This document shows positions 1 to 48,800 of a stretch of DNA of 64,000 bases, piece by piece. Position numbers and translations under genes: made by a program. The first letter of the stretch is position 1; each line of letters opens with the position of its first letter. Source of the stretch: Taxillus chinensis (lineage: Eukaryota > Streptophyta > Magnoliopsida > Santalales > Loranthaceae); contig CM042087.1 of assembly GCA_023512835.1 (NCBI GenBank), forward strand, positions 7,260,550 to 7,324,549, in the 5' to 3' direction. The notes beneath the pieces are model-generated. The model saw only the letters and a program-made list of their open reading frames with translations. It searched no databases and was not told where the DNA came from.

Positions 1-1922
1 GTTTTGGATCTGCACGAATTTATCATGATTAATGAAATTGAGCATGAACCCTAGAATTTGGCGAAAACCAATTTTGGGTTAGATCTAATGGTTTAGCATA
101 AGATCTGTGGTTAAGAACTGTTTTATATCATTGTGGATATATGTTTATGTGATTTTGGGGTTGATTTACTGTGTTTTGCATGAGGGTTGATAAGTCAACC
201 ATGGAAATCTGGGTTTAAATCTAGATTTTTAGAAATCTGGAATTTTATACGTGTTTCTGTTGTTTTTGCGCGATTTAGAGGCGTTCTGGACGTGTTTTGA
301 GGTGGATATCGTAGTTTGTGGCAAAACAGGGGTGTTAGTGAGTGTCTGGGAGTTTCTGGGCACGTTTCAGACGAAGAACAGGTGAAAACGACGATGAACA
401 GTACCCTGGGTGCGTTACTGGGTCGAACTAATGAAAATCCGAAGTTCTGGGTCGTAGGGTTGTAGTTCGTAGACCCGTAGTTCATAGGTTCGTAGTTCGA
501 AGGTTCGAAGGTTCGTAGTTCGTAGTTCGAAGGTTCGAAGGTTCAAAGGTTCGTAGTTCGTAGTTCGTAGGGTCGTAGTCCGAAGGTCGAAGATCGAAGA
601 TCCGCTTCGAGTCTTCGAGGCGCGCTACGCAGCTACAAGTCGCAGCTCTAGCTACGAGTCTCCGAGGCACGCTGCAGTTCTGCGCTACGAGTCGCAGCTC
701 CAACAATGTAACTAGACACTGGATAGCACTGGACTGGACCTATTTACATCGTAACCTATACCCATCTACACATTTAAGTATAGACATAAGTTACTATGTA
801 AATAACGAAATACCCCCCATTTGGATTCAAAGAAAAATACTAGAAAAATTAATTCCACTCTTTTAGAATGTGAAAATTGGGTTTTAGTGTAAATCTCGAA
901 AAAACCCAAAAGTTCGTAGTGGTGAATTTTTGGAAAGTGGGGTTAGACATCTCAGAAAAATCCCCAAAAATCAGATTATCTTATTTATGATATGGGAATC
1001 CAATGCCGGGACTTTTGATTTCAAGAAAATAGCTGTTATGGGTACTTCCTTCATAAATCAAGGATTGAGGATTTACTTGTGAAGACTGGTTACAGTTCTA
1101 AAGGAAATGTTGAGAATAACATGCCATACTAATGTTAGTATGTTGGTGTAAGGTATTGGGGCTTGGACTCCGTGACTTGTTTGGGTTCTCACCGTGATGC
1201 ACCGATGGTGCTATGTGGTTGACGTGGCAGGCATATGCACCGATGGCAGGCCTGTGTGGCGACTGTGGCCGGGCATATTGCGCTGTGGACAGGCTAAGGC
1301 CTGAGTTGAGCCGTTGAGCTCGTGGAGCTAGGGCTGAGTGCCCTAAGCTGGGATCCCATGGAGGATCGTGGACAAGTTATCCTATATGAGCAGGCTGAGT
1401 CCTGATGTTTGTTTGCAGCCTGAGTCCTGATGATTGTGCACACTACACGGTGCACGAGTACACTGAGCATATAGTATAGACTTATATGTGTTGCATGATG
1501 TGGAGTGTTAGGGTCACCTACTGAGCTTGTCGCTCACCCCTACTTGTTGTTTACCCTTTTCAGGTGTGACCCGAGACTAGTGGAGGACTTTCTTCCGGGA
1601 GGACGCCCACTACTCTGATGTATGATACAGTTATATTCTGTATTGTTTTATGTGATATCCCGGACATGGGTCCGTGGACAGTTGTATTTGCATACTGTAT
1701 GATGTGATGTCTGTATGATTGTTTGACTCATTGTATGCATGATGATGTATGGGAAAGTACAGGATTACCCTTGATGTATGACTGTACAGGGTTACATATT
1801 TGAGATAGCACCCGCGGTGTAGTCTTTATTGGTGCTAGTCACCAACCCCTTAACATTTCGGGTGCGGGCAAGGGGAAGTGATGTTCCTGGTTCCGGGTTC
1901 CCTGGAATTTGGGGGCGTGACA
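1..1922 (+). mobile_element. Ty3/gypsy LTR, 3' portion, inserted in copia copy A
   Basis: The right edge reads GGCGTGACA, the reverse complement of the TGTCACGCC edge of the other gypsy LTRs here, and copia coding sequence resumes immediately after it. Internal blocks match the G1 LTR in inverted orientation, for example the CCCCCCATTTGGATTCAAAG block near 816 and the TTCGAAGG-rich array at 451-606. The segment 1530-1580 holds the 'GCTCACCCC...TTTTCAGGTG' block common to the gypsy LTRs of the window. The LTR start and the rest of the element lie to the left, outside the window. No TSD can be checked because only one side is visible. Confidence 0.8.
451..606 (+). repeat. TTCGAAGG / TTCGTAG short tandem array in gypsy LTR
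   Basis: Irregular alternation of GTTCGTAG and GTTCGAAG units. Several perfect GAAGGTTC dyads occur between about 499 and 555. Related TTCGAA-rich tracts lie in the G1 LTR, the J LTR and upstream of the Ogre-like LTR. Open frames across it are products of the repeat, not genes. Confidence 0.8.
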
Positions 1923-3867
1923 CGTGGCACCAGTGAAGAACGAAGAAATGATGCAGATGATGCTACGGATGAATCGGACTCGGGACTTCCACTTAACTCC
2001 GGACATGTTCCTTCGGATATTCAAACTACCGGAGTACCTTCAAGTCCATCCGGACCAGCTAATACAGAAATGAATAGTAATGGAGAACCGCAAAACATTC
2101 CAGAATCTATTAATATGGATAATGCTGGCCCGGAAGAAGCTCACACAACAGACGAACAAGAACCACCTAATCTGACAGAGCTTCAAATCATTGAGTATTC
2201 ACCACCACTTGCACAAAACTATAGGTGGACTTAAAACCACCCTCAAGAACAAGTGATTGGTGATCCTACTGTTGGTGTTAGAACAAGGGCAGCCACCTCC
2301 AACATGTGCCTCTACTCTTGCTTTTTGTCGCAAATAGAGCCAAAGGTGGTGGAAGAAGCACTTCAAGATTCAAATTGGATAGACGCCATGCAGGAAGAGT
2401 TAAATCAGTTCAAGAGGAATGATGTGTGGACTCTTGTACCTAGGCCAAAGTCTCAACAAGTCATTGGGGTTAAATGGGTTTTCCGGAACAAACTTGATAC
2501 GGACGGAATCGTAATCCGGAACAAAGCCCGACTGGTAGCCAAGGGTTATCGTCAAGAAAAAGGAATAGACTATGACGAAACCTTTGCCCCAGTAGCCAGA
2601 CTTGAGGCAATCAGAATGTTCTTGGTATACGCTTCATACGAAAACTTTAAAGTTTATCAAATGGATGTCAAGAGTGCATTTCTAAATGGAGATCTTGAAG
2701 AGGAGGTATATGTTGAACAACCTCCAGGTTTCATTGAACCAAAGGCTGGACATCTGGTCTACAAACTAAGGAAAGCTTTGTATGGATTGAAGCAAACTCT
2801 AAGAGCCTGGTACGATACACTTTCAGAATTCTTACTTGCTCACAACTTTGAAAAAGGGAAGATTGACACCACGCTATTCTTACGGAAAGAGAAGGGACAT
2901 ACTCTGACCGTACAGATCTACGTGGATGATATCATTTTCGGATCAACTAATCCGAAGCCTTGTGATGAGTTCGCCAAGTTGATGACTTGCAAGTTTGAGA
3001 TGAGTATGATGGGAGAACTGTCCTACTTCCTTGGGATCGAAGTCAAACAACTGAAGGAAGGGACCTTCATAAACCAAGCTAAGTACACTCACGACTTAAT
3101 CAAGAAGTTTGGTATGGAAGGTTTATCTCCCGTCAAAACTCCAATTCCAGTCAGTGCCAAGTTAGACCCAGATGTTGATGGCAAATCAGTGAATGTGACT
3201 GAGTACAGAGGGATGATTGGATCCTTGCTGTATCTTACAGCAAGTCGCCCAGACATAATGTTTGCAACTTGCATCTGCGCAAGATATCAGGCGAATCCCA
3301 AAGAGTCACATATGCTTCATGTAAAACGGATATTAAGGTATCTCAAAGGGACAATTAATTTGGGCCTCTGGTACCCAAAAGAGTCCAACTTCGCCTTATC
3401 CGGATATTCTAATGCTGATTTTGCCGGGTGTCGCATAGACAGGAAAAGCACCAGTGGTACATGCCAATTCCTTGGAAACAGATTGATCTCTTGGTTCAGT
3501 AAGAAGCAGAATTCCGTATCAACCTCTCTGCTTTGAAGCGGAATATATAGCTGCTTGGGAGTTACACGCATGACTTCTCTAGATGCAAAGTCAACTTACT
3601 GACTACGGCTTCAACATGACATTTCTTCCACTCTACTGTGACAATACCAGTGCTATTGCTATCAGCAATAATCCTGTAATGCATCCAAAGACTAAACATA
3701 TTGAGGTCAGGCATCATTTCATTCGCGACCATGTTCTTAAAAAGCACATATCCTTGGAACATGTTGCTACTGAAGATCAACTGGCGGATATACTTACAAA
3801 GCCCCTACCTGATGTAAGATTTTCTGAACTTCTTCTCAAATTAGGTATGCTTGACTTTTATGCATAA
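1923..3867 (+). pseudogene. copia A pol fragment: RT and RNase H, broken
   Basis: Encodes the low-complexity tail after integrase (Asp/Ser/Pro-rich) and then the copia RT, starting around the motif [14 protein letters not shown] near 2256. RT landmarks include the [13 protein letters not shown] block near 2580-2620 and the catalytic YVDD at 2919-2930, followed by the [17 protein letters not shown] stretch typical of SIRE/Maximus. RNase H follows ([13 protein letters not shown] near 3446, CDNTSAIAISNNP near 3637, LADILTKPLPDVRF near 3783). Decay: CAA to TAA at 2232, and frameshifts around 3528-3580 that destroy the RNase H motif STAKAEY intact in copy C. The usual YGLKQAP reads YGLKQTL here. 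Family assignment is solid; the copy is not functional. Confidence 0.9.
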
Positions 3868-5114
3868 CTTCACCTGTTATCCATCAGTAGTTATTCTCAG
3901 AACATGCATTGTTGTACTTCATGGTTAATGATAGATATTGAACTTCATGTTTAACTATCTTACTTTAGTCGTGTAATTGTTATGATATTTCTCACTAAGT
4001 TCAAATGGGAGGATGCTTGCTTATCCAGACTGATAGTGAATCAAGCAAACATAATTAAATATATATGAAACAAATCCTCTTTTGATGTCATGAATTCTAC
4101 TCCATCTTCCATCTCATGTCTTATGATTTCCTGACTGACTGACATATCTAAGATGCATGGTTGAGGAATGATTTGGGATAGCTCGGATTGAAAGTGGAAA
4201 TTCACTATGTCTGCCGATCAGCTGCTTGAGTGGAGTAAATCAAGGATAGGCAGTAGTTTCTCACGATTCATGTTAAACAGGAAACATCTTAAAGGTTTTA
4301 ATAGTCTACGAGGGAGAAATTGCTCTCTCTATTATCTAAGTAATACCTCCTGATTCACATTCCATGACCTCTTTCCTAGCTGTCTATCTGAGGGGAGTCA
4401 TCCTTGAGAAGATCGCATCAAAATGATTCGCTGATCTCAGGGGGAGAGAATACTTCATTGAATCTTAAGTAACGCCCCCTGTTTCAGCAAAAGGCATGAC
4501 CATAGGGCGAGAGAATGCTTATTATTAAGTAATGCCTCTCTGATATGTCTCGGATGTTCCGCCCTATAACTCTCACTCATAAAGTTGATTGGACTTGCAT
4601 TGTTGAATCGGAATTGTGGATTGCTTGGCTGTTATCTTCCTCTTCCTAGCATTTTAGGCATGACAGTCAGTTGTAACATCATACATCATGTGCTCTTCTT
4701 TTCATTTTCACTCATACATTCTCTGATGGATGACGTCATATAAATCTAATTAAATCTTTGCTCTCATACTCAGTATGAAGGATTGGCTATGTTGACCTAT
4801 TGGATTTATGTGTTAATTATCTCACACATACATTGATTTCAGTATGATGGCTTTCACTTCTTATGTATGTGTCTAGCACTTAACTGTTTATGCATAAGTT
4901 CTGTTTCTTCTTTGTTCGGATTGTGTGTTATTCTCTTATATTATTTATCCGGACTATCCCGAACCTGACGAGACTTGCTCTTCAAAGCATCTATTTGTTA
5001 AGTCACAGGTTCAGATTCTCTTTGCAATTCATCGCTCTATCTTGTCTGATGTCTCGAATTTCTGAGGTGTTGTGGTACTTCACACTTTCTCGACATCAAG
5101 ACAGCAAAGGAATC
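3868..5114 (+). other. copia A spacer between pol and extra ORF, first part
   Basis: No protein-coding signal. It aligns in order with 49190-50350 of copy C. Three repeated units contain a G-rich tract followed by a C-rich one (about 4309-4350, 4438-4483, 4500-4535), each followed by sequence like TGACCTCTTTCCTAGCTGTC. G and C tracts can pair across an A/T-rich loop. It ends with the TSD GAATC (5110-5114). Confidence 0.7.
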
Positions 5115-18567: not shown

Positions 18568-18602
<35 letters not shown>

Positions 18603-20683: not shown

Positions 20684-23348
20684 ATGGCATCCCAAGCTCT
20701 CTATGGTGTTGTTCCTGGCCATCTTGTCGATTGGTCCAGAATCTCTAATCCTCCAGCATGGCTCCACGAGGTTTGCCAGCTACTCGAGCACAACAACCTT
20801 TTCCCGCTTGTCTCTGCCCCGGCTGATCTTCTAGTGTCAGATGTCCTGGCCTTCTATCAGCACTCTACCTCAACAGAGGAGTAAATCTTTTCTGTGGTTC
20901 GAGGGGAACCCATCAAGATCACACCTCAGGTGATCCGGGACGTCTTCAACCTTCCTACCGGCGACGACATCCGGCCAAATGCTGCTGCCATGGCTCCTTC
21001 CATGGGGTGTCCTAATAAGGTGAAGGAGTACAAAATGAAGTCTTTCCATGGTCCTCACCGCTGTATGGCCACCATACTCATCCGGTGTCTTCTGGCTCGC
21101 TCCACGGATCTCGACTCGGTTTCGTACGATCTCCTGCTGGCGATGTACGCGGTTTTTGAGTCACTGCCACTTGACTGGGGCAACTTTCTCTTCCGGGTGA
21201 TGCGGAATGGGAAACGGAACTCGTCCTTCGGACGGATTCTGTCCCAAATTTTCCGGCATCTTCATCCCGCGCACTTCCAAAGTGAACTGGTGATTCCCTT
21301 CCCGGCGACCTACTACTTCCGACATCTTACTGCCGACGGGACCCTCACCGTTCGCCGCCCTCCAGTCTCCCGTGCCCTTGCTGCTGCTTTGGAACAGCAA
21401 GCTAGTTCCATTGGTGAACCTGTCGCCAGCTCAGGTCACGAAGTCAGTTCTGCTCTCCGGTCCGTCCACTCTAGCATCCGGTCCGTTGCCGCTCCGGCAC
21501 GCTCCCGCAGTTCACTGCACAACGTTCGAGTTGACCCATCTCCTGCTGCTGTCCCTGCCTCTCTTGCTGCTGCTCCTGATGCTACTGTTGACGCTCCCGC
21601 ACCCATCTCTCCGGTCACAGCGGCTGTTGCTGCTGTTCTTCCGGACCTCCCATCTTCTCCTGCGGAAGCCTCTCCTGCTCACTCTCCGGACCTCCAGGAC
21701 TACCTCGACCATCTTCCCACCGACCTACTGAATGACTGCTGGCTGCGCTTCAGCCTCGCCATTACTGCCGACATCCCAGAACCTACCCTCCGGGTGTTTT
21801 ACGCTCAACACACCCAGACCCCGGAGGAAATGCTTACTTGGAACTGCTACCACGGCTTTGTAACGCCGTCTCTCCTTCAGGCTGCACCTCCTGCTGCTGC
21901 CTCCTCCGGCCCTACCCATGACGCACGGACACCTGTCCCTACTGAGGCGGGTCCCTCTTATCCTGCAGATATCCCTACCATTGACCTCTCCGGTCAAAGT
22001 GGATTTGCCGCACCTCCTGCTGCTGCTGTACCACCACCGTCCTCTCATGCTGCCGCCAACTCTGCCCTGCCCACACTTGCCCCTCTTCATGCGGGCGAGT
22101 CCTCAAAAGCTCCCGCCTTTGGTCTTGGGCGCGTCTCTTTTGTCACGATTTTATCTGAGGTTGCTTTCTCCGCCCAGCTCGATCGCCTTGTTGAGGACAG
22201 TCGTCTTCAAGCCCAGGCCCTTTCCGACCATGTCCGGGCCATGGGTGCAGAGCTTCTTTCTGCCTTCTCCTCATCCTCTCTCTCCATGGATCAGAACCTT
22301 GAGCGGCTTGCCACGTCTTTCTCTGACTTGTCTACCTCGATTGCGGACTTAACGCAAGTCGTGGCCAGTCCCTCCTGCTCTCACCGATCTGCCAAACCGG
22401 GGGAGAAATCATCTGATCCTTCCCCTCCTTCCACTGCTGGCGTTGCCTCTTGCAAACAGTCTGCACCTACTCTTCGTCCAGGCCTTCCGGTGCCTAAACG
22501 CAGCCGTTTCTCCACTAGACAGACCAGCTCTCCCACTCCTGCTGTTCCATCTGGTGCTATCTCCTTCCTCCCATCATACGCGGAATTGCATCCGGATGGT
22601 GCTGATGGGAGCATTCTTGCTGTGGCCAAGGCCTATGCCTCCTCCACCGCCGAGCGCTGATGTGTGTCTGCCTTGTCCCCCTTCGAACCTCAAGACATCC
22701 GGACCATACTATCTGAGGAGGGACAATTTTCCACTGACGACATCGACAACTATGCTCTGGCAGTAAAGATGGAGTTGAGGCTATTCCCCTCTTTACTTGA
22801 GGAAGGCATTGATTTTGATGTTCTTCCTTGCTGGGTTGAAAACCAGTTTCCTGCTGTGGACGTTATTCTATCCTACATCTATGGTACAACAGAAAACAGC
22901 CGACCATGGACCTCTCTGTCCATCGTTTTCATCCCTTTCCGGGTCGACTCCCCACATTTCATGCTGACTGTTTTTTGATCAAAGAGAAGAAAATCTTGCT
23001 TCTGGATTCTCATCAGGTTATTGACCACCAGATTAGAAAGAATCAGATGCGGAGTCTCGTTCGAACCTTGTCTGATGCAATCAGACAGAGTTCTCTCTAC
23101 GAAGATTTGGCTTTACCACCTCTTGGTCAGGATGAAGTACTTATGGGGACGATCCGAACAAGAAGAATGTGCCCCAGCAACCCGATGGAAATAGTTGTGG
23201 AGCCTTTGTCTGCTACTTCCTGAAATCTGTTATCTCCTTTGATGATAACTGGAAAAATATCATCGAGTTCACCAAGAAGCAGACAATGGCAATACAATAG
23301 CATGCAGCAAGGATGATCTTCAAATATAGTAAGCCGTACGTATCATAA
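20684..23348 (+). pseudogene. copia A extra ORF: plant-transposon domain plus Ulp1-like (C48) protease, broken
   Basis: Start at MASQALYGVV, matching MAPRTSLSGV in copy C. Residues about 10-230 form a globular domain (GHLVDWS, VRGEPIKITPQVIRDVFNLP, RCMATILIRCLLARS, LPLDWGNFLFRVM). Then a Pro/Ser/Ala-rich region and a helical stretch, and a C-terminal C48-like domain: PHFML with putative catalytic His (codon 22955-22957), LLLDSH with Asp (23005), QQPDGNSCGAF with Gln and Cys (TGT 23196-23198). Breaks: TAA at 20882, TGA at 22658, frameshift in the T run at 22971, further shifts after 23100. It sits between RNase H and the PPT, the place of the env-like ORF of SIRE elements. A SUMO-protease-like activity is inferred from motif order only. 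Confidence 0.75.
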
Positions 23349-23477
23349 TTTATATCTGTACTGAGGCTTAATGTATTTCTGCTGCAACTTAGTGGAATTG
23401 TTCTCTTTAATCCTTACCTCTGTGTTATTTCTTGTTGCCTTACCGGATTAGATTACAAAGGGTTTGGCATATCCATA

Positions 23478-23488
23478 TTGGGGGAGAT
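23478..23488 (+). promoter_or_regulatory. copia A polypurine tract
   Basis: TTGGGGGAGAT directly before the LTR TG. Same in copy C (53419-53429). Confidence 0.85.
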
Positions 23489-23819
23489 TGTTAGATCAAA
23501 CCTAGAATTTGAATAATGCGGAACAAACCCTATGTAATTTGACTCGAGATGTTTCATGTTTACTATTAAGTCTGTGCAGATGAGTTAACTTTAATCTGGA
23601 CCTACTCGTGTGAGAACAAAGCTAAGAACAGGATACATAATCCTGATCCGGATCATCATGAGTATCATCATTCACTTGGTACATAACCAAGTCTTCATCC
23701 GGAGTAAGGACTTTTCGTGCGGACTAAATACTTGACAAAACGACTTGAGGAACCCGTGTCTAACTCTCAACTTGACTAAGTCAATTGATACCAAATAAGA
23801 TTCCAAGTCTATCACTCAC

Positions 23820-24220
23820 ACGGAATAAGAGAGACTTGTTGCGGAGAGAGAATCGAAATTGTCACTCCACTGGACTAAAGAAAAAGAAGACACGGACTAA
23901 GAAATCCGAATCTCATTCGAAAGGAGTAAGGACAATTGTTGCGGAGTAAGGACAACAAATGCGAAATAAGGAATCCGACCCATTACTCATGTGGAGTAAG
24001 GATTCACTGATACGGAGTAAGCATTCAGCACTTACTTTATGCGGAGTAAGGAAGCGCTGATGCGGAATAAGCTCTCCGAGCCTGCACTTCACGCGGAGTA
24101 AGAGGCGCTGACACGGAACAAGGATTCCAGGACTTCATTCATACGGAGTAAGCAACCATTGACATGGAGTAAGGATCCGAGCTTCGCTGATACGGAGTAA
24201 GGAACCTTATGACGGACTAA
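23820..24220 (+). repeat. GGAGTAAG-type unit array in copia A U3
   Basis: Units such as GCGGAGTAAGGA, CACGGACTAAG and ATACGGAGTAAGC recur about every 20-35 bp, separated by variable sequence often containing TCCGA. Equivalent arrays: 34548-34997, 35683-36240, 53637-54232. Confidence 0.9.
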
Positions 24221-24314
24221 GAAGATGCTACTTTATCATTTCCAAGCCGCTTTTATTGCAATCAGCTCGCTTCGTCCCGATGTAAAACAAACCCGTTGAA
24301 AACCAAAATTCTTA

Positions 24315-24519
24315 CACGTGGATTATGCGGAGATGTGGATGCGATCTCAAATGCAATTGGAATGAAGCAAGAAGTCACCACAACTTATGCTTCCAATATT
24401 TCGAGCTCCACATCCGCAGCAGTTAAAGCTTCAGCATTTTCTGATGAAGAACTTCAATGCTTCACACTGCTCGAAAAATGCAGTTCCAAGATAGATTCCT
24501 AGGATGTCTATATATATAC
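24315..24519 (+). promoter_or_regulatory. copia A LTR promoter: G-box and TATA
   Basis: CTTACACGTGGAT carries the G-box CACGTG (24315-24320); TATATATATA starts at 24508. The 193-bp distance is nearly the same in the other three family LTRs. Confidence 0.6.
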
Positions 24520-24832
24520 CTGAAGCAATGTAAAATAAATATACGCGCGCGCTCACTAATACTCATATACTTACAAGCGTGTATCGTGTGAAATAGCATA
24601 TACAGAGATTTACAGCCAATTGTGTGTAACCATAACAGAGTGTTGTGTTGTAATCAGCTGTTTGGCTTTGTTGTAATTATCTTCAGATAATAAAGCAACA
24701 TACTTCCACTACCTGGTTAATCTTCCGCACTGATTTTATCCGTTTAACCAGAGTGAATGTCTAGCCATTAAGAGAGAGAAAGAATTTTGAAAGAGCCTAT
24801 TCACCCCCCCTTTAGGCTCTCTGGGACCAACA

Positions 24833-25503
24833 GATGCTGAGAGAAGATGTCTATCCGAGTTGTACCTCTTCTCTCCTCAAGACATATGGACTATTCGTTC
24901 TGAGATGGGTCTGCTCACCACAAAAGACATAGACAACTTCTCTTGGGCAGTTAAGATGGAAATGAGGCTGTTTTCGTCCCTATACAAGGACAGGCACATG
25001 TTTGATATTTTGCCTTGTTGGAATGAAGGGTATCTTCCAGACTTAGCTGATATCCAGACCTTCATTAACGGAACTGCTGAGGATAGCACTCCTTGGAAGA
25101 CTCTTCAATCTGTCCTCATTCCATACCGGGTCATGATGCCGCACTTCATGCTGGTTGTCTTTATGATTCCGTCCAAGCAGCTGATCCTAATTGATTCCCA
25201 TCAAGTTGTGGAGCAAAATATTAGAAGGAATCAATTTGAGCCACTGCGTATTCATCTGACGGAAGCCATAAAGCAATCGGGGCTTTATGAAGAAAGGGGC
25301 TTGACTCCGTTGGGTTCGACTGAAAAGCTGAAGGCGACGGTCCGGGGCAAAAAGCTAGTGCCACAACAGCCTGATAGAGATAGCTGCAGAGCCTTTGTCT
25401 GTTTCTTCATCAAATCTATTGTCAAGGTGGATAAAAACTGGAACAGCATCCAAGCTTACACAATGGAGCAGACAATGGAGCTTAGAGAGAAGGCTGCAAC
25501 GAT
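24833..25503 (+). pseudogene. copia D extra ORF, C-terminal Ulp1-like (C48) protease part
   Basis: Best-preserved copy of the protease domain: about 220 codons open from 24833 to the G1 insertion. Landmarks: FSPQDIWTIRSEMG, VLIPYRVMMPHFML with putative catalytic His (25142-25144), LILIDSH with Asp (25193-25195), PQQPDRDSC with Gln (25367-25369) and Cys (25385-25387). Gln and Cys are six residues apart and the order His-Asp-Gln-Cys is that of the Ulp1/SENP family. After the Cys the usual Gly is Arg (SCRAF), while copies A and C have SCGAF. Cut on the left by copia A and on the right by gypsy G1, so the N-terminal part of D lies outside the window. Confidence 0.75.
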
Positions 25504-27466
25504 TGTCACGCCCTGGATTTCCAACCCACAGAAACCAGTTAATGAATCCCCATGCCCGCACCTGAAGGGACAAGGGGTTGGTGAGAACACCGAGAAAGGG
25601 ACCTTAGCACGGGTGCCGTCCCTAAACCATATCACACATATACTAAAATCTCATTTCAAAGCACATTACAAACACACATACATACATGTTCTTTCCCCCA
25701 CGGGGTTACCACATAGTTTTTTTTTCTTTTTTTACAATACAACAAAATAAACAAACACACACAAGGTCTTCGCCTCTGGTGAACCTCCTAGCTCCTGTAA
25801 GCACCTGAAACAAACAAAAACAAACACAACAGGAGGGGTGAGCAACCACAGCTCAGTAGGGATTATGTTTCCCCGACGCATCCCAACTCATAAACTAGTG
25901 TAGGCATGTGCTCATGTAATACTACATATACATATATATCACCAACTCAATCATGTACACATATTGAAATGAAAGAAAACCTCTCAGGTAATCCCAAACA
26001 TTGCCTCTCAGGCACACAGTACTGCCCCTCGGGCACAGCAGTGCCTCTCAGGCATAATATTGCCTCTCAGGCACAATATTACCTCTCAGGCACAATAGCC
26101 TCTTAGGCTCTGAACAAATCTCACCTCCTAGGTCCTCAACAGTAGCCTCCCAGGCTTACCAAGATAGCCTCGCATGCCCACATGACCACTTGAGTTTACA
26201 ACTCTATCCTTATGTCTTGACCAAGAGAGAGGATTCTCGTAGAAGCTATTTTCTTGAAATAAAAAGTCCCGGCATTGGCTCCCAATATCATAACTAAGAT
26301 AATCTGATTTTTGGGGATTTTTCTGAGGGGTCTAACCCCACTTTCCAAAAAGTCACCACTACGAACTTTTGAAGATTTCCGGGACTTTACACTAAATCTC
26401 ATTTTTCACATTTTGAAGGAGTGGGAATTAATGTTTCTAGTATTTTTCTTTGAATCCAAATGGGGGGTATTTCCTTATTTACATTGTAACTTAAGTATAA
26501 GAGAGGCATAAAGGTTTACAATGTAAATGGTTCAGTTCAGTCAAACTGCATTTCGACTCTGCCAGTGAACTATATTTTCGAATCTGTATTTTCGAATCTC
26601 TTTTCGGACTGTCTTCGACCCTCGAACCTACACTCGAACTACCTTCGAAAACTACCTTCAAAGTACCCATGGACTGCCTTCGAAACTCCCTTCGAAGTAC
26701 CTTCGAACCTTCGAAACGATACTCGAAAACTGCACATTCGACACTTGAAATTATACTACATCGAACCTACCTTCGAACCTTCAAAACTGCACATTCGAAA
26801 TTTTCAATTTCCAGTCGATCTCATCGGTACGTTTCCTTTCGATTCACGACGATTCTTGTTCATCATTGTTTTTCACCTATTTCTCTTCTGGATTCAACCC
26901 AGAAACCTCCAAACCTTTCGAAATCTCATAAAACTCATACCTAATAATATATATTAGGTTTTAAATTACGTCTTACCACTTAAAATACATTATGCATGCA
27001 AATAACAAGATTCAACCCAAAATTGGTTTTTTCCCCAAAACTTAGGGTTCATCCAAATTCCACGAATTTGGGGTTAATTCGCATGGTTTAGCTACTCTAG
27101 CAAGTAGAATCAACAAATAAGAGTGAGAATAACAAATCCCTACCTCGACTTTGGCCGATTTGAGCTCCGGATCGTCAATTCCTCTTTTCCCCCTTCTATT
27201 TCTCTCTCCTCTTATCTTTCTCTCTCTAGAAAGCAAGCACGTAAGACACTTAAGGATTTGAGTTCTTCACTGCCCTATTTATACTTTCCCATATTTAATT
27301 CATTAAAATATCAAAATTACCCTCACAGGGTCCCGACTCTAAATCGAGCCCAATTACTGTCAAAACTCTCTATTCGACGAATACGTTGTTATACTAATAT
27401 TCACATCCCTCGATGTGCATTCCATCACATGGCTCTCTCCCAGAACCCCAAACACGGGTCATTACA
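25504..27466 (-). repeat. G1 3' LTR
   Basis: 1963 bp, plus-strand edges TGTCACGCC and GGGTCATTACA. It contains a CCTCTCAGGCA minisatellite (25992-26110), the conserved GAGCAACCACAGCTCAGTAGGG block (25838-25862), TTCGAA-rich sequence (26570-26830), and TATAAATAGGG in minus sense around 27275. Confidence 0.92.
25992..26110 (-). repeat. CCTCTCAGGCACAATAT minisatellite in G1 3' LTR
   Basis: About six imperfect units of TGCCTCTCAGGCACA. The partner LTR (33660-33720) has about three, so the array changed length after insertion. Confidence 0.85.
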
Positions 27467-27484
27467 TCCTCTCCCCCTTAAAAG
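27467..27484 (-). promoter_or_regulatory. G1 polypurine tract
   Basis: Minus sense CTTTTAAGGGGGAGAGGA adjoining the LTR edge TGTAATGACCC. Confidence 0.8.
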
Positions 27485-28072
27485 CTTTTTGTCCCCGAAA
27501 AGAAACAAAAGAGCCAAACAACAACACAAAGTTACACTCAAACTCAACAAATCCATCGCAAAAGCCAAACTCACTCACAAACATGCCACACAGCTCACAA
27601 CTCACAACAAGCCGAAACAGGCACAAACAACCCCACAAGGAAGTCACAACTCACAAAGACACTTACCTATCCAATACATGTTTAACCAAATAGATCACAT
27701 ATATTCAACACCACAAAGCCATATTCAACACCACAAAACCACATATCACATATCACCTCATATCACATATCACATATGTGAAAATCACATATCACCTCAT
27801 ATCACATATCACATATGTGAAACCAAACAAAACACAAAATAACGGCATATCTCACATGTGCACAAACCCACCTAAACGAACGCAAGAATAACACATAAAC
27901 AATAAACAATAAACACATGAAGCACATCATACACCTAATAAACACGAAAACACAAACCCAAGAAACACACCATACACATAAGAAACACGAACCCACATAT
28001 CTCATATGTGCATAATACCACGTCACATAAGACAGAGCACATACCATATAAGGCTTTCACCACCTCCCTCCC
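27485..28072 (-). other. G1 3' untranslated region
   Basis: About 590 bp between pol stop and PPT, dominated by CACATATCACATAT and AAACACA repeats. 27725-27820 is a short tandem of CACATATCAC-type units. No coding signal. Confidence 0.65.
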
Positions 28073-29575
28073 TCAAGATTGTTCGTCCTCGAACAACTCG
28101 GGGTAATGCTCCCGCATCTCCACCTCGCGTTCCCATGTCTCCTCCTCCATGCCATGGTGTCTCCACAAGACACGAACCAAAGGGATAACTTTGCCTCGCA
28201 AAAGCTTTTCCCGCCTGTCCACGACCCGAACAGGAACCTCAACAATAGAGATATCATCAGCAATATCCAGATCACCCCAATCAATCACATGAGATGGGTC
28301 TGGATGATATTTGCGCAAATGCGACACGTGGAACACATTGTGCACCCTGCTCAATCGTGGCAGAAGAGCCAATCGATATGCCACAGGACCAACTCGGTCC
28401 AGAATCGTGGGCGATAGTTTGGAACCTTTCCCAAACCGTCGATGTCCTTTCCTCGGGAACACACAGAGGAATACATGATCGCCCACTGAAAACTCTAAAG
28501 GCCTCTGCCTCTGATCCGCATAGGATTTCTGCCTACTCCGGGCTGTCAAAAGACGCTGACGAATCATTTTCACCTTGTCGGTGGCCTCCTGGACCAGATG
28601 TGGTCCCAAGAGAGCGGCCTCGCCCACCTCAGTCCAACACAATGGAGACCGACAAGGCCTCCCATACAATGCCTCAAATGGTGCCATCCCAATGGACACC
28701 TGATAGCTGTTGTTGTAAGCAAACTCCACCAATGGTAGGTGCGTGGCCCACGAACCCCCAAAATCCAACACACATGCTCACAGCATATCCTCCAAGGTCT
28801 GGATCGTCCTCTCAGACTGACCATCCATCTCAGGATGAAAAGTTGTACTCAAGTTCAGCTTTGTCCCCAAAGCCTCCTGCAAACCTGCCCAAAAGTGGGA
28901 TGTAAACCTCGCATCCCTATCCGATACAATAGATGAGGGCACCCCATGTAACCTCACGATCTCACTGATATACAGCTGGCTCAAAGCCCCAATAGGATCC
29001 CACTCCCTTGTAGCTAGGAAATGGGCTGATTTCGTCAGCCGATCCACAATAACCCAAATCATGTCCTTCCTCCCCGAGGTAGGTGGAAGTCTTGTCACGA
29101 AATCCATCGTAATGTGATCCCATTTCCAGTCTGCCACTGCTAAGGGCTGCAACATACCCGCTGGACGCTGGTGCTCCGCCTTTACCTGTTGGCAGGTAAA
29201 GCATGCAGAAACAAACTCTGCCACATCCCTTTTCATCCTAGGCCACCAAAAATGTCTCCGAAGAGAATGGTACATCTTGGTGCCTCCTGGATGAACAGCA
29301 ACTCTGGACTGATGGAACTCCCTCATCACATCCCTACGAAGAGGAGACGCCACAATCAGATGCCCCTGAAAGGTCAACTCATGCTCAGGACCCTCGGCCC
29401 AATCTCCTGCTAGTTCCCCAGCTAAAATCCGTGCACGGAGTGCCTCACACTCATTATCCCCCAATTGTCCCTCTTGGACTCGCTGATATAACTCAGGCAC
29501 CACAACAATAGGGCTCAAAACCATTCCTCTCTCAGAGGTACTAGGCTGGAGCTGCAATATAGCCAACTGCTCCAT
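28073..29575 (-). pseudogene. G1 integrase with C-terminal chromodomain-like segment
   Basis: Minus strand. HHCC zinc region [18 protein letters not shown] through ACFTCQQVK (about 29310-29180). Catalytic core: MDFVTRLP (near 29100), [10 protein letters not shown] (near 28900), QSERTIQTL (near 28800), supplying the D, D, E residues. C-terminal GPVAYRLALLPRLSRVHNVF (near 28400-28340) and a chromodomain-like tail VLWRHHGMEEETWE (near 28150), ending EDEQS with TGA at 28073. One internal TGA at 28773-28775 replaces an Arg codon (G2 reads MLRACVLD), otherwise the frame is open. The chromodomain-type tail is what places G1 with Tekay/Del-like chromoviruses. Confidence 0.9.
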
Positions 29576-29581
29576 CAGTTT

Positions 29582-30923
29582 TCACTCTCTCATAGCCACC
29601 TCGGCCTTGTTCTTCCTACTCAGAGCATCTGCCACCACATTCCCCTTACCAGGGGTATACGCAAGGGTAAAATCAAACGTCTGTAGATACTCTATCCATC
29701 GACGCTGCCTTAGGTTCAAATCCTTCTGGGTAAAGATATACTGAAGACTCCGATGGTCTGTATACACCACAAACCTGTCCCCCAAAAGATAATGTTGCCA
29801 ACTCTTTAAGGCAAAGATCACCGCCGCCAACTCTAAATCATGCGTGGGGTAGTTCAATTCATGAGGTTTCAACTGCCACGAACCATACGTAATCACATTG
29901 CGCTCTTGCATCAACACACACCCTAGGCCTACTCTGGACGCATCACAATATACCTCATAAGGCACCCCCTCTCGTGGTAATCTCAACACTGGCGCGGTGG
30001 TCAACCGGGCTTTTAAAGTCTCAAAAGCCTGCTGGCACTTGTCAGTCCACTCAAATTTGACCCCCTTCCGAGTCAATGCTGTCAAAGGTGCTGACAAACG
30101 GGAGAACCCCTCCACAAAGCGCCGATAATACCCTGCCAAGCCTAAAAAGCTCCTAATCTCAAACACATTCACTAGTCTCCTCCACGATGACACTGCCTCA
30201 ATCTTAGCTGGGTCCACTCGGACTCCTCCAGCTGATACCACATGGCCAAGGAAATGCACTTCCTGCATCCAAAAGTCACTTACTGAACTTGGCATACAAC
30301 TGATGCTCCCTCAATGTCTGCAAAGCTATAGCCAAATGTTCCTCATGCTCCAATCTGGTCTTGGAGTACACAAGGATGTCATCAATGAATACCACCACAA
30401 AGGAATCCAAGTAAGGAGCAAACACCTGGTTCATTAACTGCATAAATACCGCAGGTGCATTAGTGAGCCCAAAAGGCATCACCAGCCACTCATAATGCCC
30501 ATATCGACACCGAAAAGCAGTTTTGGGGATATCCTCCTTTCTGACTCTCAACTGATGATATCTTGATCTCAAATCTATCTTTGAAAACCACTGAGCCCCG
30601 CTCAATTGATCAAACAAATCATCTATTTGAGGCAATGGGTATTTGTTCTTTACCGTTACTTGGTTTAGTTTTCTGTAATCAATACACAACCGCAACGTCC
30701 CATCTGCTTTCTTGGCAAAAAGTACTGGAGCACCCCAAGGCGAAGTACTCGGTCGAATAAATCTCTTGCCCTCCAGTTCCTCTAGTTGTTTCTGCAGCTC
30801 TCTTAACTCCGCAGGCCCCATCCGATAGGCCACCTGCGAGATAGGCCCTACCCCCGGTAGCAACTCAATGCAAAACTCTATACCCGTCTCAGGTGGTAGA
30901 CTCCACAACTCCTCTGGAAACAC
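29582..30923 (-). pseudogene. G1 reverse transcriptase and RNase H, one frameshift
   Basis: RT from [75 protein letters not shown], catalytic [10 protein letters not shown] near 30385. A single frameshift near 30285 separates this from the continuing [26 protein letters not shown], then RNase [19 protein letters not shown] (near 29950), [26 protein letters not shown]. It ends in the [16 protein letters not shown] linker; a TGA at 29579-29581 then precedes the integrase frame. Lengths fit a full-size gypsy RT-RNase H. Confidence 0.92.
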
Positions 30924-31497
30924 ATCCTAGAACTGGTCCACGACCACTAGCCATACTCTCTTCTCTACATTCCCCTCGGCAAATGTGAGTGTTGCCAATC
31001 TATGAGTAATGGCGCCCCACTACTCCACCATCGGTCCAGCTCGACTCGCCTCACGATCCCATTCACCCAACAAGGTGCAAGGAAGCCCTGTTGGTGACAC
31101 AAAAGATACCCGCCGTCTATAATAATCAATAGTAGCTTGGAAGGTTTCAACCAATCCATGCCCAAAATCAAATCAAATGCCCTCAAAGGCATGACATATA
31201 AGTCAAATGACAACTCTATATCACCCACAGTGAGAATACACTGGTGACTCACCTGTCGCACCTCGTAGATACCACCCACTGGTGATTCAATAGACAGTGG
31301 CCTCTCAACTGCACCACTCTCTAAGCCAAGGCTATTCACTACAGATTCAGCAACAAAGGAACACGATGCACCCGTATCAAACAAAACAGATACAAGTGTG
31401 CGAGAAATCAAAATCGTACCTCGTACAACTGAAGGTCCTGCCCCGCCCTCAGTAGTTGAGGATGGAACCTCTGCCTCCTCCTGCGGTGTCGTGGTCA
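30924..31497 (-). pseudogene. G1 aspartic protease region
   Basis: LFDTGASCSFVAESVVNSL near 31380 gives the D-T-G active site; FDLILGMDWL near 31165 is the second conserved block. A one-base lesion near 31140 (after GMDWLK) shifts the frame, and a TAG at 30927 interrupts the linker to RT. In G2 the same linker is open (KVEKRVWPAVVDQFQDVFPEE). Confidence 0.88.
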
Positions 31498-32818
31498 AGG
31501 CAAACACTTTGCCCTGAGCTGCACTACCAGTAGCCTCGCTCCTCTGTCCTCTCTCCTCTGTATGGATCCCACTCTGGACCCCTTCACCTCCATGTGGCTG
31601 CCTCTCTGGCCTCCCCTGGGGTCTAGACTGACTAGAACCTGCCTGACCGCCCTGCCACTAACGGGCTGGTCTCTCCCCTGGAGCTCTAAACTGGGTGTCA
31701 CCTCGGACACTCTATGCTACCCCTCCAGCACCGCTCATACTACCTCTGCTACGGCACACTCTGCTTAAGTGCCCCTCTCGCCCACAAGTGCGGCATGTCA
31801 AATGTCTCCGGGGACACTCCCGTTTCCAGTGTCCTGGATCCCCACAACACAAACAACGTCCTGGTGGACCACCCGTCGAACCCCCCTATCTCCCACTAAG
31901 GTAGGACCACGCTGGCACCACTAGAGCCTGACCCCTCTCTCTAGAGCTGCTCCCAAACTCTATCTTAGGCCTCTTGGAATCAGATCCACTCTGGAGATGT
32001 CATCCCTGATGGGCCTGTCTCCCCTCGTCGAGACCCCTCTCAACAATACGGGCCGTCTCCACTGTCTCTGAATATGTCCTCAGACGGAATGCCTCAACTC
32101 TCTGTTTGAGGGCAGGCCTCAAACCCAAGGTAAACTTATGGGCCTTTAAGTCATCCTGGGCCACAGTCTCTGGAGCAAACCTACTCAGGTTCCTGAACTC
32201 CCGCTCATACTCTGACACTGTCCTCAATCCCTGCCTCAGACCGGCAAACTCTTCCCTCTTCTGCCACCTCACGGACTCAGGGAAGAACTGATCATGAAAT
32301 AACTGAAGGAACTCATCCCACAGCATCATCTGCACATCACGGCTCCCAGCAACACTAAGCCACCACTCCAGGGCTTCACCCTCCAACTGTCTCACTGCCA
32401 ATCTCACCTTATCCTCCTCCCGCGGTGTGAGAAAGGAGAATAAGTGCTCAATATGCCTCAGCCAGTGCTCTGCAGCCACTGGATCGCCCCCTCCCAGGAA
32501 TTTACTCGGTTGTTCCTTTCGGAACCTCGTGACCACATCCTCATCAACATGTCGGGTCTCCACTGCCTCGTGTGGAACCCTATCCTCACACTTGGACTCC
32601 TCTCTGGGTGGTGGTGGAACCACTTGCTGTGCCGCTAACTCACGGCGCACCGCTTCCCAAACCTCGTCCCCCATACTTTCCCTCAACACCCCCACTTGGG
32701 CCACAAGCTGTGCCAACAACTCATTTCCCCCAACGGATTGCCCCGCATCCGGTCCCACATGGGTGGAAGACTCATCACCAATTGCCTCAGACGCACGTAG
32801 CACTCTCCTCGGAGGCAT
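31498..32818 (-). pseudogene. G1 gag with two CCHC zinc knuckles
   Basis: Start MPPRRVLRASEA at 32818, the first Met of the conserved region. Capsid core: VVTRFRKEQPSKFLGGG, AAEHWLRHIEHLF, LEGEALEWWLSVAGSR, FHDQFFPESVRWQKREEF, YEREFRNLSRFAPE, FTLGLRPALKQRVEA. The first 270 codons are intact up to TGA at 32000-32002, an Arg codon in G2 (HQGRRL). Two zinc knuckles follow at about 31775-31860, CLCCGDPGHWKREC and CRTCGREGHLSRVC, in a different frame. Gag core and knuckle spacing are typical for chromoviruses. Confidence 0.9.
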
Positions 32819-33154
32819 TTTCACTACACAAAGAAAGAATGGTTCAATCTCTAGTCCATCCCCATCACATGGGTCAATCACACATATGGCACATATATAA
32901 GCTGTCACATAGTCACACATGTCTATATTGTCACATAGTTATTCATATCATCACATATAGCACATCAAATCAGTTTCACATTCTCAATGCAAACTAGTGC
33001 CTATCCATGCATGCACACCTACACAATAACTGATTATCCTCAGTACACCTCAGAGGCTCATACAGGATCGTGTTGATCAGGCACGTCCCTCTATACCCCT
33101 CAAAAGGACTCAAGAGTAATCAATCACCCCACTACCCTAGGCCAACTAGACCAT
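32819..33154 (-). other. G1 5' leader
   Basis: Untranslated leader between PBS and gag Met, A/T-rich with CACATAT repeats (32880-32960). It has the CCTAGGCCAACTAGACCATG block beside the PBS, as in G2. Confidence 0.7.
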
Positions 33155-33166
33155 GCTCTGATACCA
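33155..33166 (-). promoter_or_regulatory. G1 primer-binding site (initiator tRNA-Met)
   Basis: Minus sense TGGTATCAGAGC, two bases from the LTR edge at 33169. Confidence 0.92.
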
Positions 33167-33168
33167 TC

Positions 33169-34493
33169 TGTCACGCCTCGGATTTTCGACCCACAGAAAC
33201 CAGTTAGTGAATCCCCATGCCCGCACCCGAAGGGACAAGGGGTTGGTGAGAACACCGAGAAAGAGACCTTAGCATGGGTGCCGCCCCTAAACCATATCAC
33301 ACATATACTAAAATCTCATTTCAAAGCACAGTACAAACACACATACATACATGTTCTTTCCCCCACGGGGTTACCACATAGTTTTTTTTTCTTTTTTTAC
33401 AATACAACAAAATAAACAAACACACACAAGGTCTTCACCTCTGGTGAACCTTCTAGCTCCTGTAAGCACCTGAAACAAACAAAAACAAACACAACAGGAG
33501 GGGTGAGCAACCACAGCTCAGTAGGGATTATGTTTCCCCGACCCATCCCAACTCATAAACTAGTGTAGGCATGTGCTCATGTAATGCTACATATACATAT
33601 ATATCACCAACTCAATCATGTACACATATTGAAATGAAAGAAAACCTCTCAGGTAATCCCAAACATTGCCTCTCAGGCACACAGTATTGCCCCTCGGGCA
33701 CAGCAATGCCTCTCAGGCTCTGAACAAATCTCACCTCCCAGGTCCTCAACAGTAGCCTCCCAGGCTTACTAAGATAGCCTTGCATGCCCACATGACCACT
33801 TGAGTTCACAACTCTATCCTTATGTCTTGACCAAGAGAGAGGATTCTCGTAGAAGCTATTTTCTTGAAATAAAAAGACCCGACATTGGCTCCCCATAGCA
33901 TAACTAAGATAATCTGATTTTTGGGGATTTTTCGGAGGGGTCTAACCCCACTTTCCAAAAAGTCACCACTACGAACTTTTGAAAATTTCCGGGATTTTAC
34001 ACTAAATCCCATTTTTCACATTTTGAAGGAGTGGGAATTAATTTTTCTAGTATTTTTCTTTGAATCCAAATGGGGGGTATTTCCTTATTTATATTGTAAC
34101 TTAAGTATAAGAGAGGCATAAAGGTTTACAATATAAATGGTTCAGTCCAATCAAACTGCATTTCGACTCTGCCAGTGAACTATATTTTCGAATCTGTATT
34201 TTCGAATCTCTTTTCGGACTGCCTTCGACGCTTGAACCTACACTCGAACTTCCTTCGAAAACTACCTTCGAGGTACCCATGAACTGCCTTTGAAACTCCC
34301 TTCGAAGTACCTTTGAACCTTCAAAACGATACTCGAAAACTACACATTCGACACTCGAAATTACACTACATTGAACCTACCTTCGAACCTTCGAAACTGC
34401 ACATTCAAATTTTTCAATTTCCAGTCGATCTCATCGGCTGTTCTGCTCAGTTCACGATAGTTACTGTTCATCATCGTTTTTCACCTGTTTCAT
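33169..34493 (-). repeat. G1 5' LTR, outer end missing
   Basis: Matches 25504-26890 at high identity apart from fewer CCTCTCAGGCA units. The match stops near 34493 (TTTTTCACCTGTTTC), where copia LTR sequence begins. The lost part includes the region with the TATA box. Confidence 0.9.
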
Positions 34494-35109
34494 CGGACTA
34501 AGAAATCCACACCTAATACTTCAAACAGACTAAGTCAAAAAGATGCAGAGTAAGAATCTTAGTCTACAAAGTCGCACGGAATAAGAGAGTCGTCACGAAG
34601 TTGAAAAGTTAAGTCTTCCACTTAATCGGACTAAAGTAAAGAAGACACGGAGTAAGGAATCCAAGTCTTCCATACATGCGGAGTAAGGAAGTACTTTTAC
34701 AGAATAAAGACTTGAGTCTTTATTCGCACGGAGTAAGAAATCCGGACCACTTACTCATACGGAGTAAGGATGAGCTGATACGGAGTCAGTCATCCGTTCC
34801 TTTAACTCATGCAGAGTAAGGAAACTAGATGCGGAGTAAGGAAGTGCTGATGCGGAGTAAGCACTCCGACCTTCTCTTTCATACGGAGTAAGGAAGCGCT
34901 TACATGGAATAAGGATTCCAGTACTAAATTGATACGGAGTAAGCAATCAGTATTATGGAGTAAGGATCCGAGCTTAGTTTAAATATGGAGTAAGGAACCT
35001 TACACCGGAGTCAAGAAGATGCTACTTTAACTTATCTCTTCGTAATCAAAGTCACCGGCTTGCTGCTTCCCGATGTAAGACAAACTCGTTGAAAACTAAA
35101 AGCATCTTA

Positions 35110-35307
35110 CACGTGGATCATTCGGATATGGACACAACTTTAACTACACTTGGGAACTTACAAAGACTCTTATGCGTTGCAAACCCAAGATCTTGAAGAC
35201 CACATCCGCAGCAATTGAGGCAGAGAGATTTTCGAGAAAAAGTAAATGTGCACAATGTCCGGAACAACAAGTTCCAAGGTTGTCTCTTGTGGATGTCTCT
35301 ATAAATA
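35110..35307 (+). promoter_or_regulatory. copia D LTR G-box and TATA
   Basis: CACGTG at 35110-35115 and TATAAATA at 35300-35307, 190 bp apart. Confidence 0.6.
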
Positions 35308-35490
35308 GGAACACTTGTACATTTTATAAAAAAAGTGAGCGAGTAATAGTTTTGTGTATGTACCAAAGCTCATTAAGATCATAGAGGCTAGCATGTGCGT
35401 ACTTGTAAACAGAGTGCTAAAGAGTTGTTAAGTAGGTCTAAAAGCTTCCAAGCTTCAGTCTGCTTCTACTTTGTTGTACTTATCACACTG

Positions 35491-35556
35491 ATAATAAAAC
35501 AAAATACTTCCACTATCTGGTTATCTTCCGCATTGATTTTATCTTTTAACCAGATA
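35491..35556 (+). terminator. polyadenylation-like signal and hairpin, copia D LTR
   Basis: ATAATAAAAC followed by a stem TATCTGGTTA...TTAACCAGATA with a 22-base loop. Copy C keeps the stem with one G-T pair (AACTAG); copy A has CTGGTTAA/TTTAACCAG. Role in RNA 3' end formation is inferred. Confidence 0.45.
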
Positions 35557-35631
35557 AGTGTTGTGCTAAAGAGTTAGAAAAGAGTTTTGATAAGAGCCTA
35601 TTCACCCCCTCTAGGCTCTAAGGGACCAACA

Positions 35632-45806: not shown

Positions 45807-48800
45807 ACTGTTGTTTTTCAGGAGCATCTCTGGAATGTACTACCGGATCACTTGAAGTTAAAGATCAATCAAAGCAAGTGGATCCTCGATACTGGATGCT
45901 CTGGACATATGACGGGTGATCAGACTTTGCTTGTAGAAGTTAATGAAAAATGAGGTCCATCCGTTTCATATGGTGACAACAGCAAAGGTAGGACTGTCGG
46001 GTATGGCACTTTAACCAACGGCTGTGTATCAATCACTAGAGTTGCACTAGTCGAGGGTTTGAAGCATAATTTGCTAAGTGTCAGTAATTTATGTGACAAA
46101 GGATTTACTGTTTCCTTTATGTCCAACACCTGTACAGTAAGGGAAAACTTATCCGGAGATGTTAAGTTATCTAGATCAAGAGATGGGGACATATACTCAG
46201 TGGTCTTAAGAAATAATTCTTCTGACCCTGTATGCTTCCTCACTAAAGCTTCAGATGAAGATAGTTGGTTATGGCACAAGCGATGCGCACATTTAAACTT
46301 TAAGTCACTGTCTAAGTTAGCAACACTTGATCTTGTCACTGGTCTACCTAAACTCGAATACTCCAGAGACACTCTCTGTCGAGAATGTCAACTCGGCAAA
46401 TAGACCAAACACAGCTTTAAGAGCAAATCAGTTAATTCAATAACTGCTCCTCTACAACTTCTTCATATGGACCTCTGTGGTCCTATTTCTGTTCCTTCGC
46501 TGGCTGGTGCGAGATATACCCTTGTGGTTATCGATGATTTCCCCAGATACACATGGGTGATGTTCCTAAAATCAAAGGATCAAACTTTTGAGCATCTTAT
46601 AGATCTCTTCAAGTGGATAAGCAACTCACAAGGACTGAGCATAAAGTGCATCAAGAGTGATCATGGTACAGAATTTGATTTTTCAGATATGAGATCATAT
46701 TGATCTGAACAGGGCATTCAGCATGACTTCTCTGCGCCCAGAACTCCATAACAAAATGGGGTAGCTGAGCGCAAGAATCGTACTTTAGTCGAGGCTGGCA
46801 GATCTATGTTAGTAGGGGCAACGCTTCCTCTCAGTCTATGGGCTGAAGCTGTGTCCACTGCCTGCTATGTTAAGAATAGAACTCTAATAAATAAATCTAC
46901 CATGAAAACACCCTATGAGATGTGGAGAGGACAAAAGCCTTCAATTTCACATTTCATAGCTTTTGGGTGTACTTGCTATATATTGATAAATGACAAAGAA
47001 TCCCGGAATAAATTTGAGCCAAAATCTGATGATGGGATTTTTGTCGGGTACTCATTACATAGCAAGGCTTATCGGGTCTTCAATAGAAAACTTTTTAAAG
47101 TTGAAGGATCTATCCATGTGACTTTTGATGAAGCTAATCTTGAATGGTCAAAAGTTGCTTCTTCAAGTTCTAATGTGCAGGTCCCGGACAGCAACATCGA
47201 TTACTCGAAGTTTATGAATGTTCCTGATACACATTCTGACCAACCACGTGGCATCAACGAAGCACAAAGAAATTATATGGATGATGCTACGGATGATTCG
47301 GACTCAGGACTACCGTTAAGCTCCGGACATACACCTATGGATACCCAAAATTCCGAAGCACCTTCAAGTCCGTCCGGACCAGTTAACACTGAAAGAAACA
47401 GTGTTGAAGAACCACCTAGTTCTACCGTACCTTCTAATACAGAAACATCTCGTCCAGAAGAAGCTCAACTAGCAGATACACCTGAACCACCTAACATGGC
47501 AGAGCTTCAAATTATTCAAGATCAACCATCACATGCACAGAATTACAGATGGACCCAAAACCATCCCTCAGATCAAGTGATTGGTGATCCTACTGTTGGT
47601 GTAAGAACAAGAGCAGCCACCTCCAACATGTGTCTTTACTCGTGTTTTCTATCTCAAATAGAACCAAAGGTGGTGGATGAAGCTCTTCGGGATTCGAATT
47701 GGATAGAAGCCATGCAAGAAGAGCTGAATCAATTTAAGAGAAATAATGTGTGGACTCTAGTACCAAGGCCTAAGTCTCAGCAAGTCATAGGAGTTAAATG
47801 GGTGTTCCAGAACAAGATTGATACGGATGGAATTGTAATCCAGAACAAAGCCAGACTGGTAGCCAAAGGATATCGTCAAGAAGAAGGAATAGACTATGAT
47901 GAGACCTTTGCTCCGGTGGCAAGACTTGAGGCAATCCGAATGTTTTGGCGTATGCTTCATATGAAAACTTCATAGTTTATCAAATGGACGTCAAGAGTGC
48001 ATTCCTGAATGGAGATCTTCAAGAGGAGGTGTACGTTGAACAACCTCCAGGTTTCATTGAACCCAAGGCTGGACATCTGGTTTACAAACTAAGGAAAGCT
48101 TTGTATCGATTGAAGCAAGCTCCAAGAGCCTGGTACGACACACTTTCGGAATTCTTACTCACTCATAACTTTCAAAAAGGGAAGATTGACACCACGCTAT
48201 TCTTACGGAAAGAGAAAGGACATACTCTGATCGTACAGATATACGTGGATGATATCATTTTCGAATCAACTAATCCGAAACTTTGTGATGAATTTGCCAA
48301 GTTGATGACTGGCAAGTTTGAGATGAGTATGATGGGAGAACTGTCCTACTTCCTTGGGATCGAAGTTAAACAACTTAAGGAAGGGACCTTCATAAACCAA
48401 GGTAAGTATACTCACGACTTAATCAAGAAGTTTGGTATGGAAGGTTCGACTCCCGTCAAAACTCCAATGTCAGTCAATGCCAAGTTAGACCCAGATGTTG
48501 ATGGCAAATCAATGAATGTGACTGAGTACAGAGGGATGATTGGATCCTTGATGTATCTTACAGCATGTCGCCCGGACATAATGTTTGCAACTTGCATCTG
48601 CGCAAGATATCAGGCGAATCCCAAAGAGTCACATATGCTTCATGTAAAATGGATATTAAGGTATCTCAAAGGGACAATTAATTTGGGCCTCTGGTACCCA
48701 AAAGAGTCCAACTTCGCCTTATCCGGATATTCTAATGCTGATTTTGCCAGGTGTCGCATAGACAGGAAAAGCACCAGTAGTACATGCCAATTCCTTGGAA

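Follow-up and report, generated by a model that had tools for sequence, protein, structure and literature searches.

A Ulp1/C48-like protease domain in the extra 3' open reading frame of a SIRE-like Copia group in Taxillus chinensis

Introduction

Most SIRE elements (74%) have been reported to carry an extra 3' open reading frame (ORF), and these ORFs sort into 19 groups that share little or no similarity with one another (PMC6317226). The extra 3' ORFs of Sireviruses are called env-like without experimental proof (PMC2829016, PMC6317226). Here, we analyze an ORF of this kind in a 64,000-nucleotide stretch of Taxillus chinensis DNA (assembly GCA_023512835.1, contig CM042087.1, positions 7,260,550 to 7,324,549 of the forward strand; hereafter the window, to which all coordinates refer), where it is carried by three remnants of one Copia group, copies A, C and D. 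The ORF resembles the SIRE eORF-3'F or env-like ORF in its place between pol and the terminal polypurine tract (PPT), in its direction and in the AT/TG junction that follows the PPT (PMC6317226, PMC2829016, PMC4093653). It differs in ending in a Ulp1/C48-like protease domain, whereas the available parts of those papers describe the env-like ORFs as highly variable and do not mention a C48 domain. Given that its position matches that of the extra 3' ORF in those 74% of SIRE elements, the C48 ORF probably represents a variant of the env-like ORF rather than something added to it.

Capture of Ulp1 by plant transposons is known. The KIU (Kaonashi) Ulp1 genes reside in Mutator-like elements (MULEs) lacking terminal inverted repeats and are VANC-related, and the elements carrying them have been linked to a loss of methylation at related elements (PMC13317346). 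VANC proteins carry the domains DUF1985 and DUF287 (PMC5735166), neither of which appeared in the profile matches of the extra-ORF pieces scanned here. A third system of interest is the Gypsy family Athila, which has a 3' ORF with a Transposase_32 domain (PF20167; PMC11728184).

Literature searches found no paper joining Sirevirus, SUMO and protease. A paper on Ginger DNA transposons (PMC2836005) reportedly treats Ulp1 and LTR (long terminal repeat) elements together, with an abstract that opens on Gypsy-type integrases. Among the literature matches listed, the accessible text contained no Copia ORF with a C48/Ulp1 domain, and Additional file 4 of PMC6317226, which covers extra-ORF domains, may hold a C48 entry.

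Results

The catalytic set predicted by the first-pass annotation is present in copy D, with His 25142, Asp 25193, Gln 25367 and Cys 25385 in Ulp1 order and spacings of 17 (His to Asp) and 6 (Gln to Cys). Copy A has all four residues, spread over three frames, and copy C has Gln and Cys only; Gln and Cys are kept in 3/3 copies, and His and Asp in both copies that hold that part. Spacing alone is weak evidence, because the bare pattern H-x16-[DN]...Q-x5-C turned up in 259 of 20,000 shuffles of D (1.3%). A six-frame search of the 64 kb with a Ulp1-type Cys signature, composed after the copies had been seen, gave three occurrences, one per copy. The curated cutoff of the Pfam profile Peptidase_C48 (PF02902, 20.7 bits) is passed by two of the three copies, C at 28.2 bits (a longer piece scores 27.4) and A at 24.2 bits. 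An AlphaFold model of D matches proteases of the SENP/Ulp1 fold in Foldseek (best E 3e-5), and two PDB sequence searches gave weak matches. A chance motif was rejected on the C48 profile and the fold, not on the bare spacing. Judged by profile and predicted fold, then, the C-terminus of the ORF is a Ulp1/C48-type cysteine-protease domain of the CE clan, in agreement with the identity originally proposed.

The window consists of nested plant retrotransposons. The order in copy C is pol, linker, extra ORF, PPT and 3' LTR. Copy A has the same order of parts, with pol and linker (1921-5115) lying about 15 kb from ORF and LTR (20184-24832) and other repeats between; both parts are collinear with copy C, and the ORF region occupies 20184-23345. 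With PPT and LTR located, the pol-ORF-PPT-LTR order suggested previously could be confirmed in A and C. Copy D is a fragment that retains the C-terminal part of the ORF only; it starts immediately beyond A's 3' LTR and is truncated at 25504 by a Gypsy LTR. The features are as follows.

1921..3970, plus strand: copy A Copia pol, comprising reverse transcriptase (RVT_2, ORF 2235-3533; PF07727, E 4.1e-75) and the following stretch, by alignment to C pol
20684..22975, plus strand: copy A extra ORF with weakly Transposase_32-like N-terminus, Ser/Ala/Pro-rich spacer and first C48 part including His, from the ORF list, stop counts and tblastn to C and D
22978..23154, plus strand: copy A middle C48 part with Asp, second frame (translation; tblastn to D, 47%)
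23163..23294, plus strand: copy A Gln/Cys part of C48, third frame (translation; PF02902, 24.2 bits for 23136-23294)
23479..23488, plus strand: copy A terminal PPT TGGGGGAG and AT attachment dinucleotide
23489..24832, plus strand: copy A 3' LTR, with 11 CGGANTAAG-type boxes
24833..25503, plus strand: copy D C-terminal C48 domain (His, Asp, Gln, Cys), between A's 3' LTR and the Gypsy LTR
25504..34491, minus strand: Gypsy element interrupting copy D, with LTRs from 25504 and 33169, and gag and integrase on the minus strand
34494..35631, plus strand: LTR remainder, probably part of copy D; 81% identical to C's LTR
46752..49189, plus strand: copy C Copia pol, SH3-like domain and RVT_2 in two frames
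50886..53009, plus strand: copy C extra ORF, N-terminus and spacer (pieces 50886-51404, 51289-51732 and 51768-53009)
52882..53286, plus strand: copy C Gln/Cys part of C48 up to the stop, His/Asp part deleted (PF02902, 27.4 bits; 28.2 for 52972-53283)
53420..53429, plus strand: copy C terminal PPT TGGGGGAG and AT
53430..54835, plus strand: copy C 3' LTR, with 16 CGGANTAAG-type boxes

The long ORF that had been reported for A and C does lie between pol and PPT, but it is broken in both, C has lost the His/Asp part, and no intact version exists among the three copies. Copy A reads through 764 codons in one frame (20684-22975) with two in-frame stops, followed by two frame changes; 2000 mononucleotide shuffles of the same stretch had a mean of 21.5 stops and a minimum of 10. 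In copy C the ORF is split into four frame-broken pieces. From the length of the copy A stretch, the full protein would have had about 890 residues.

The Nei-Gojobori method was used to calculate omega, the ratio of nonsynonymous to synonymous divergence, together with the synonymous divergence (dS) itself. For the protease part, omega is 0.20 between A and D (208 codons) and 0.24 between D and C (116 codons), and for N-terminus plus spacer it is 0.28 between A and C (618 codons). The corresponding values are 0.12 for pol (A versus C, 431 codons) and 0.39 for gag (C versus a further Copia copy, B, 327 codons). The A and C protease pieces are saturated at synonymous sites and hence lie outside the pooled estimates. 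Codon periodicity, taken as an excess of differences at third positions, is significant in the ORF for A versus C (p 1e-16), for the first protease piece of A versus D (p 0.003) and for D versus C (p 0.009), but is lacking in four noncoding controls, namely LTRs, linker and the stretch after the ORF (p 0.81, 0.97, 0.50 and 0.26). As the LTRs of the copies are only 70% (A/C), 69% (A/D) and 81% (C/D) identical, omega in the ORF is low, and periodicity is found there but not in the controls, the extra ORF is a gene that was maintained by purifying selection while the subfamilies diverged. Its decay would have come after insertion.

The pol genes of A (1921-5115) and C (47245-50382) appear to be mosaic, with blocks of 82-97% identity over 2176-3968, 68-72% just before and 57-73% after, and dS between A and C is 0.31 in the reverse transcriptase ORF and 1.46 in the extra ORF. 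This pattern suggests template switching or conversion between subfamilies.

The carrier pol is of the Copia type (RVT_2), not that of a MULE. The terminal PPT TGGGGGAG of A and C shares 7/8 letters with the Sirevirus octamer AGGGGGAG, differing in the first letter, and its placement is exactly that of the octamer, which stands 10 bp before the Sirevirus 3' LTR (PMC2829016). The AT/TG attachment site is present in both copies, as in Sireviruses. Exact copies of AGGGGGAG occur in the linker at 4439 (A) and at 49641 and 49722 (C), all of them before the ORF, whereas 89% of the PPT copies in the Sirevirus linker lie after the ORF in PMC2829016. The CGGANTAAG-type boxes of the two LTRs are missing from both ORFs and from the C linker. 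They resemble the many repeat boxes with a CGG-CCG core described for Sirevirus LTRs (PMC2829016), a likeness that leaves the CGG-CCG symmetry aside. From RVT_2, the AT/TG junction and the PPT octamers of the linker, we class the group as SIRE-like Copia, as the first-pass annotation had done.

Upstream of the protease, the N-terminal region resembles Transposase_32 below the cutoff of 45 bits (21.3 bits for a short copy A piece, 17.8 for a longer one and 11.7 for copy C), and its predicted fold has a mean pLDDT (predicted local distance difference test) of 43. The copy A N-terminus also matches an Athila-like ORF at 61319-61933 (minus strand) of the same window (E 1.5e-8); the C48 pieces have no match there at E <= 0.01, and this Athila remnant may be truncated. 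Athila is thus similar in its N-terminal region but is a Gypsy element, where the carrier here is Copia. The remnant itself, 61319-61933 together with 62622-63266 (both minus strand), has a 3' ORF that has this N-terminal region in common with the Copia extra ORF, hinting at a shared source for the Gypsy and Copia extra ORFs. The spacer common to A and C, in an alignment read by eye, holds a Pro-Lys-Arg-Ser motif that could be a nuclear-targeting signal and one further stretch that could be helical. Simple hydropathy gave no clear transmembrane segment in the extra ORF: the highest 19-residue value, 1.81, falls in D over the His strand, with values of up to 1.72 elsewhere. Such values do not favour reading the ORF as an envelope gene, though they are compatible with it.

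No relative at E <= 1 was found in two protein searches (154 and 164 candidates), one with a 591-residue piece of copy A (words from residues 1-160), the other with the 319-residue D ORF, for which candidates reached at most about 558 residues, so that full-length relatives lie outside. A control search with pol gave at least 7992 proteins at E <= 1e-5, many of them named as plants among the 120 listed, which shows that the database does cover plants; set against these 120 proteins, the extra-ORF pieces had no convincing match among the matches listed. Four scans of viral contigs, a pol scan of prokaryote genome contigs and a comparison of four pieces with NCBIfam, a prokaryote library, gave no relative or match either. 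A grape protein, P0024, joins a Copia reverse transcriptase to a Transposase_32 stretch (29.5 bits, below the cutoff of 45). We give it little weight as a relative, as the gene model may be chimeric and its BLASTP match to copy A (E 2.6) is no real match.

Elsewhere in the window, copy B has an LTR without 5' end (35632-36850) that abuts the LTR end at 35631, and a following part (38225-40467) that is 85% identical to C's 44820-47072. Two repeats at 5752-7573 and 17491-19297 are 94% identical and flank about 10 kb holding another Gypsy body.

Discussion

Our results establish the family of the domain, the order of the parts and purifying selection on the ORF. The explanation that best accounts for them, to which we assign a rough probability of 0.72 as a whole, is a three-part protein containing a Ulp1/SENP isopeptidase that helps the element, and not an envelope. 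A single protein encoded between pol and the 3' LTR would combine the weakly Transposase_32-like N-terminus and the Ser/Ala/Pro-rich spacer with a C-terminal C48 protease bearing His-Asp-Gln-Cys. The protease would be active, and would work in the nucleus, stripping host proteins or those of the element of SUMO or a similar modifier. SUMO is the modifier suggested by the nearest relatives, SENP/Ulp1, though the fold also cuts NEDD8 and ubiquitin. The benefit to the element would most plausibly be weaker SUMO-dependent silencing, or else protection of its own integration machinery. The ORF would then probably belong with the env-like 3' ORFs while being a modifier-directed protease.

A number of observations weigh against this explanation. 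The profile comparison proposed for A and D at the outset succeeded for A but not for D, which alone reaches 13.7-14.6 bits, below the Peptidase_C48 cutoff. The structural comparison proposed for D did yield SENP/Ulp1-fold matches, but with template modelling scores of only 0.36-0.45 (best 36 rows) from a model whose mean pLDDT is 62.7, falling below 50 at residues 1-33, 173-186 and 196-222 and leaving the Cys loop poorly modelled. The best row of one PDB sequence search was an unrelated SETD1B chain, and 4/17 rows of the other were unrelated J-domain proteins. Ulp1 usually has Trp after the catalytic His, where Phe stands here. The omega values are rough, as dS in the pooled comparisons with A (1.5 to 1.9) is close to saturation. 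Taken by itself, the 43-codon Gln/Cys piece of A versus D lacks significant periodicity (p 0.27). The absence of protein matches also counts here, although it says little more than that close relatives are not in that database.

It is conceivable, though unlikely, that the C48 domain instead serves to process the element's polyprotein or the product of the extra ORF, with no action on host modifiers. Its fold includes viral processing proteases, with the African swine fever virus protein pS273R among the fold matches and a weak match to adenovirus Peptidase_C5 (13.0 bits, below the cutoff of 21.3), and selection on the domain fits such a role too. However, an aspartic protease is already present in the pol of Copia elements, and Peptidase_C48 and SENP/Ulp1 match the domain more closely than adenovirus proteases do. 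Less probable again is a catalytically idle Ulp1-like fold that binds SUMO or other proteins and was kept for targeting and not for cleavage. The strong divergence of the domain (A and D pieces are 42-55% identical) and the un-Ulp1-like residue after His are compatible with an idle fold, but the retention of the catalytic residues in every copy that has the relevant part of the domain speaks against one. It is very improbable that a single capture brought in a host gene fragment, or a DNA transposon gene with Ulp1, that merely hitch-hikes without a role for the element. This reading was rejected on the selection evidence: although plant transposons are known to capture Ulp1 (PMC13317346) and 3/3 copies are broken, omega is low across copies with LTRs 19-31% different and periodicity is confined to the ORF.

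For the proposed isopeptidase, the nearest known parallel in mechanism is KIU, the VANC-related Ulp1 gene of MULEs linked to anti-silencing (PMC13317346). A bolder version would make the env-like ORF an anti-silencing nuclear SUMO protease, aimed by its fast-changing N-terminus at the element's own chromatin and stripping SUMO from silencing proteins, a retrotransposon counterpart of VANC/KIU reached independently; we regard this version as tentative and rather doubtful.

A recognisable enzyme domain with its catalytic set, under purifying selection, makes the function of Sirevirus 3' ORFs a simple assay question. If confirmed, Copia retrotransposons would join the plant mobile elements with Ulp1-like domains, suggesting that transposons have turned more than once to interfering with SUMO or related tags. 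Extra 3' ORFs in SIRE elements and Ulp1 in MULEs were both known; a C48 domain in a Copia ORF did not come up in the accessible text of the literature matches listed. Like the ORF described here, KIU supplies its transposon with an accessory protein that contains a Ulp1 domain, but its carrier is a DNA transposon, whereas the carrier in T. chinensis is a Copia LTR element.

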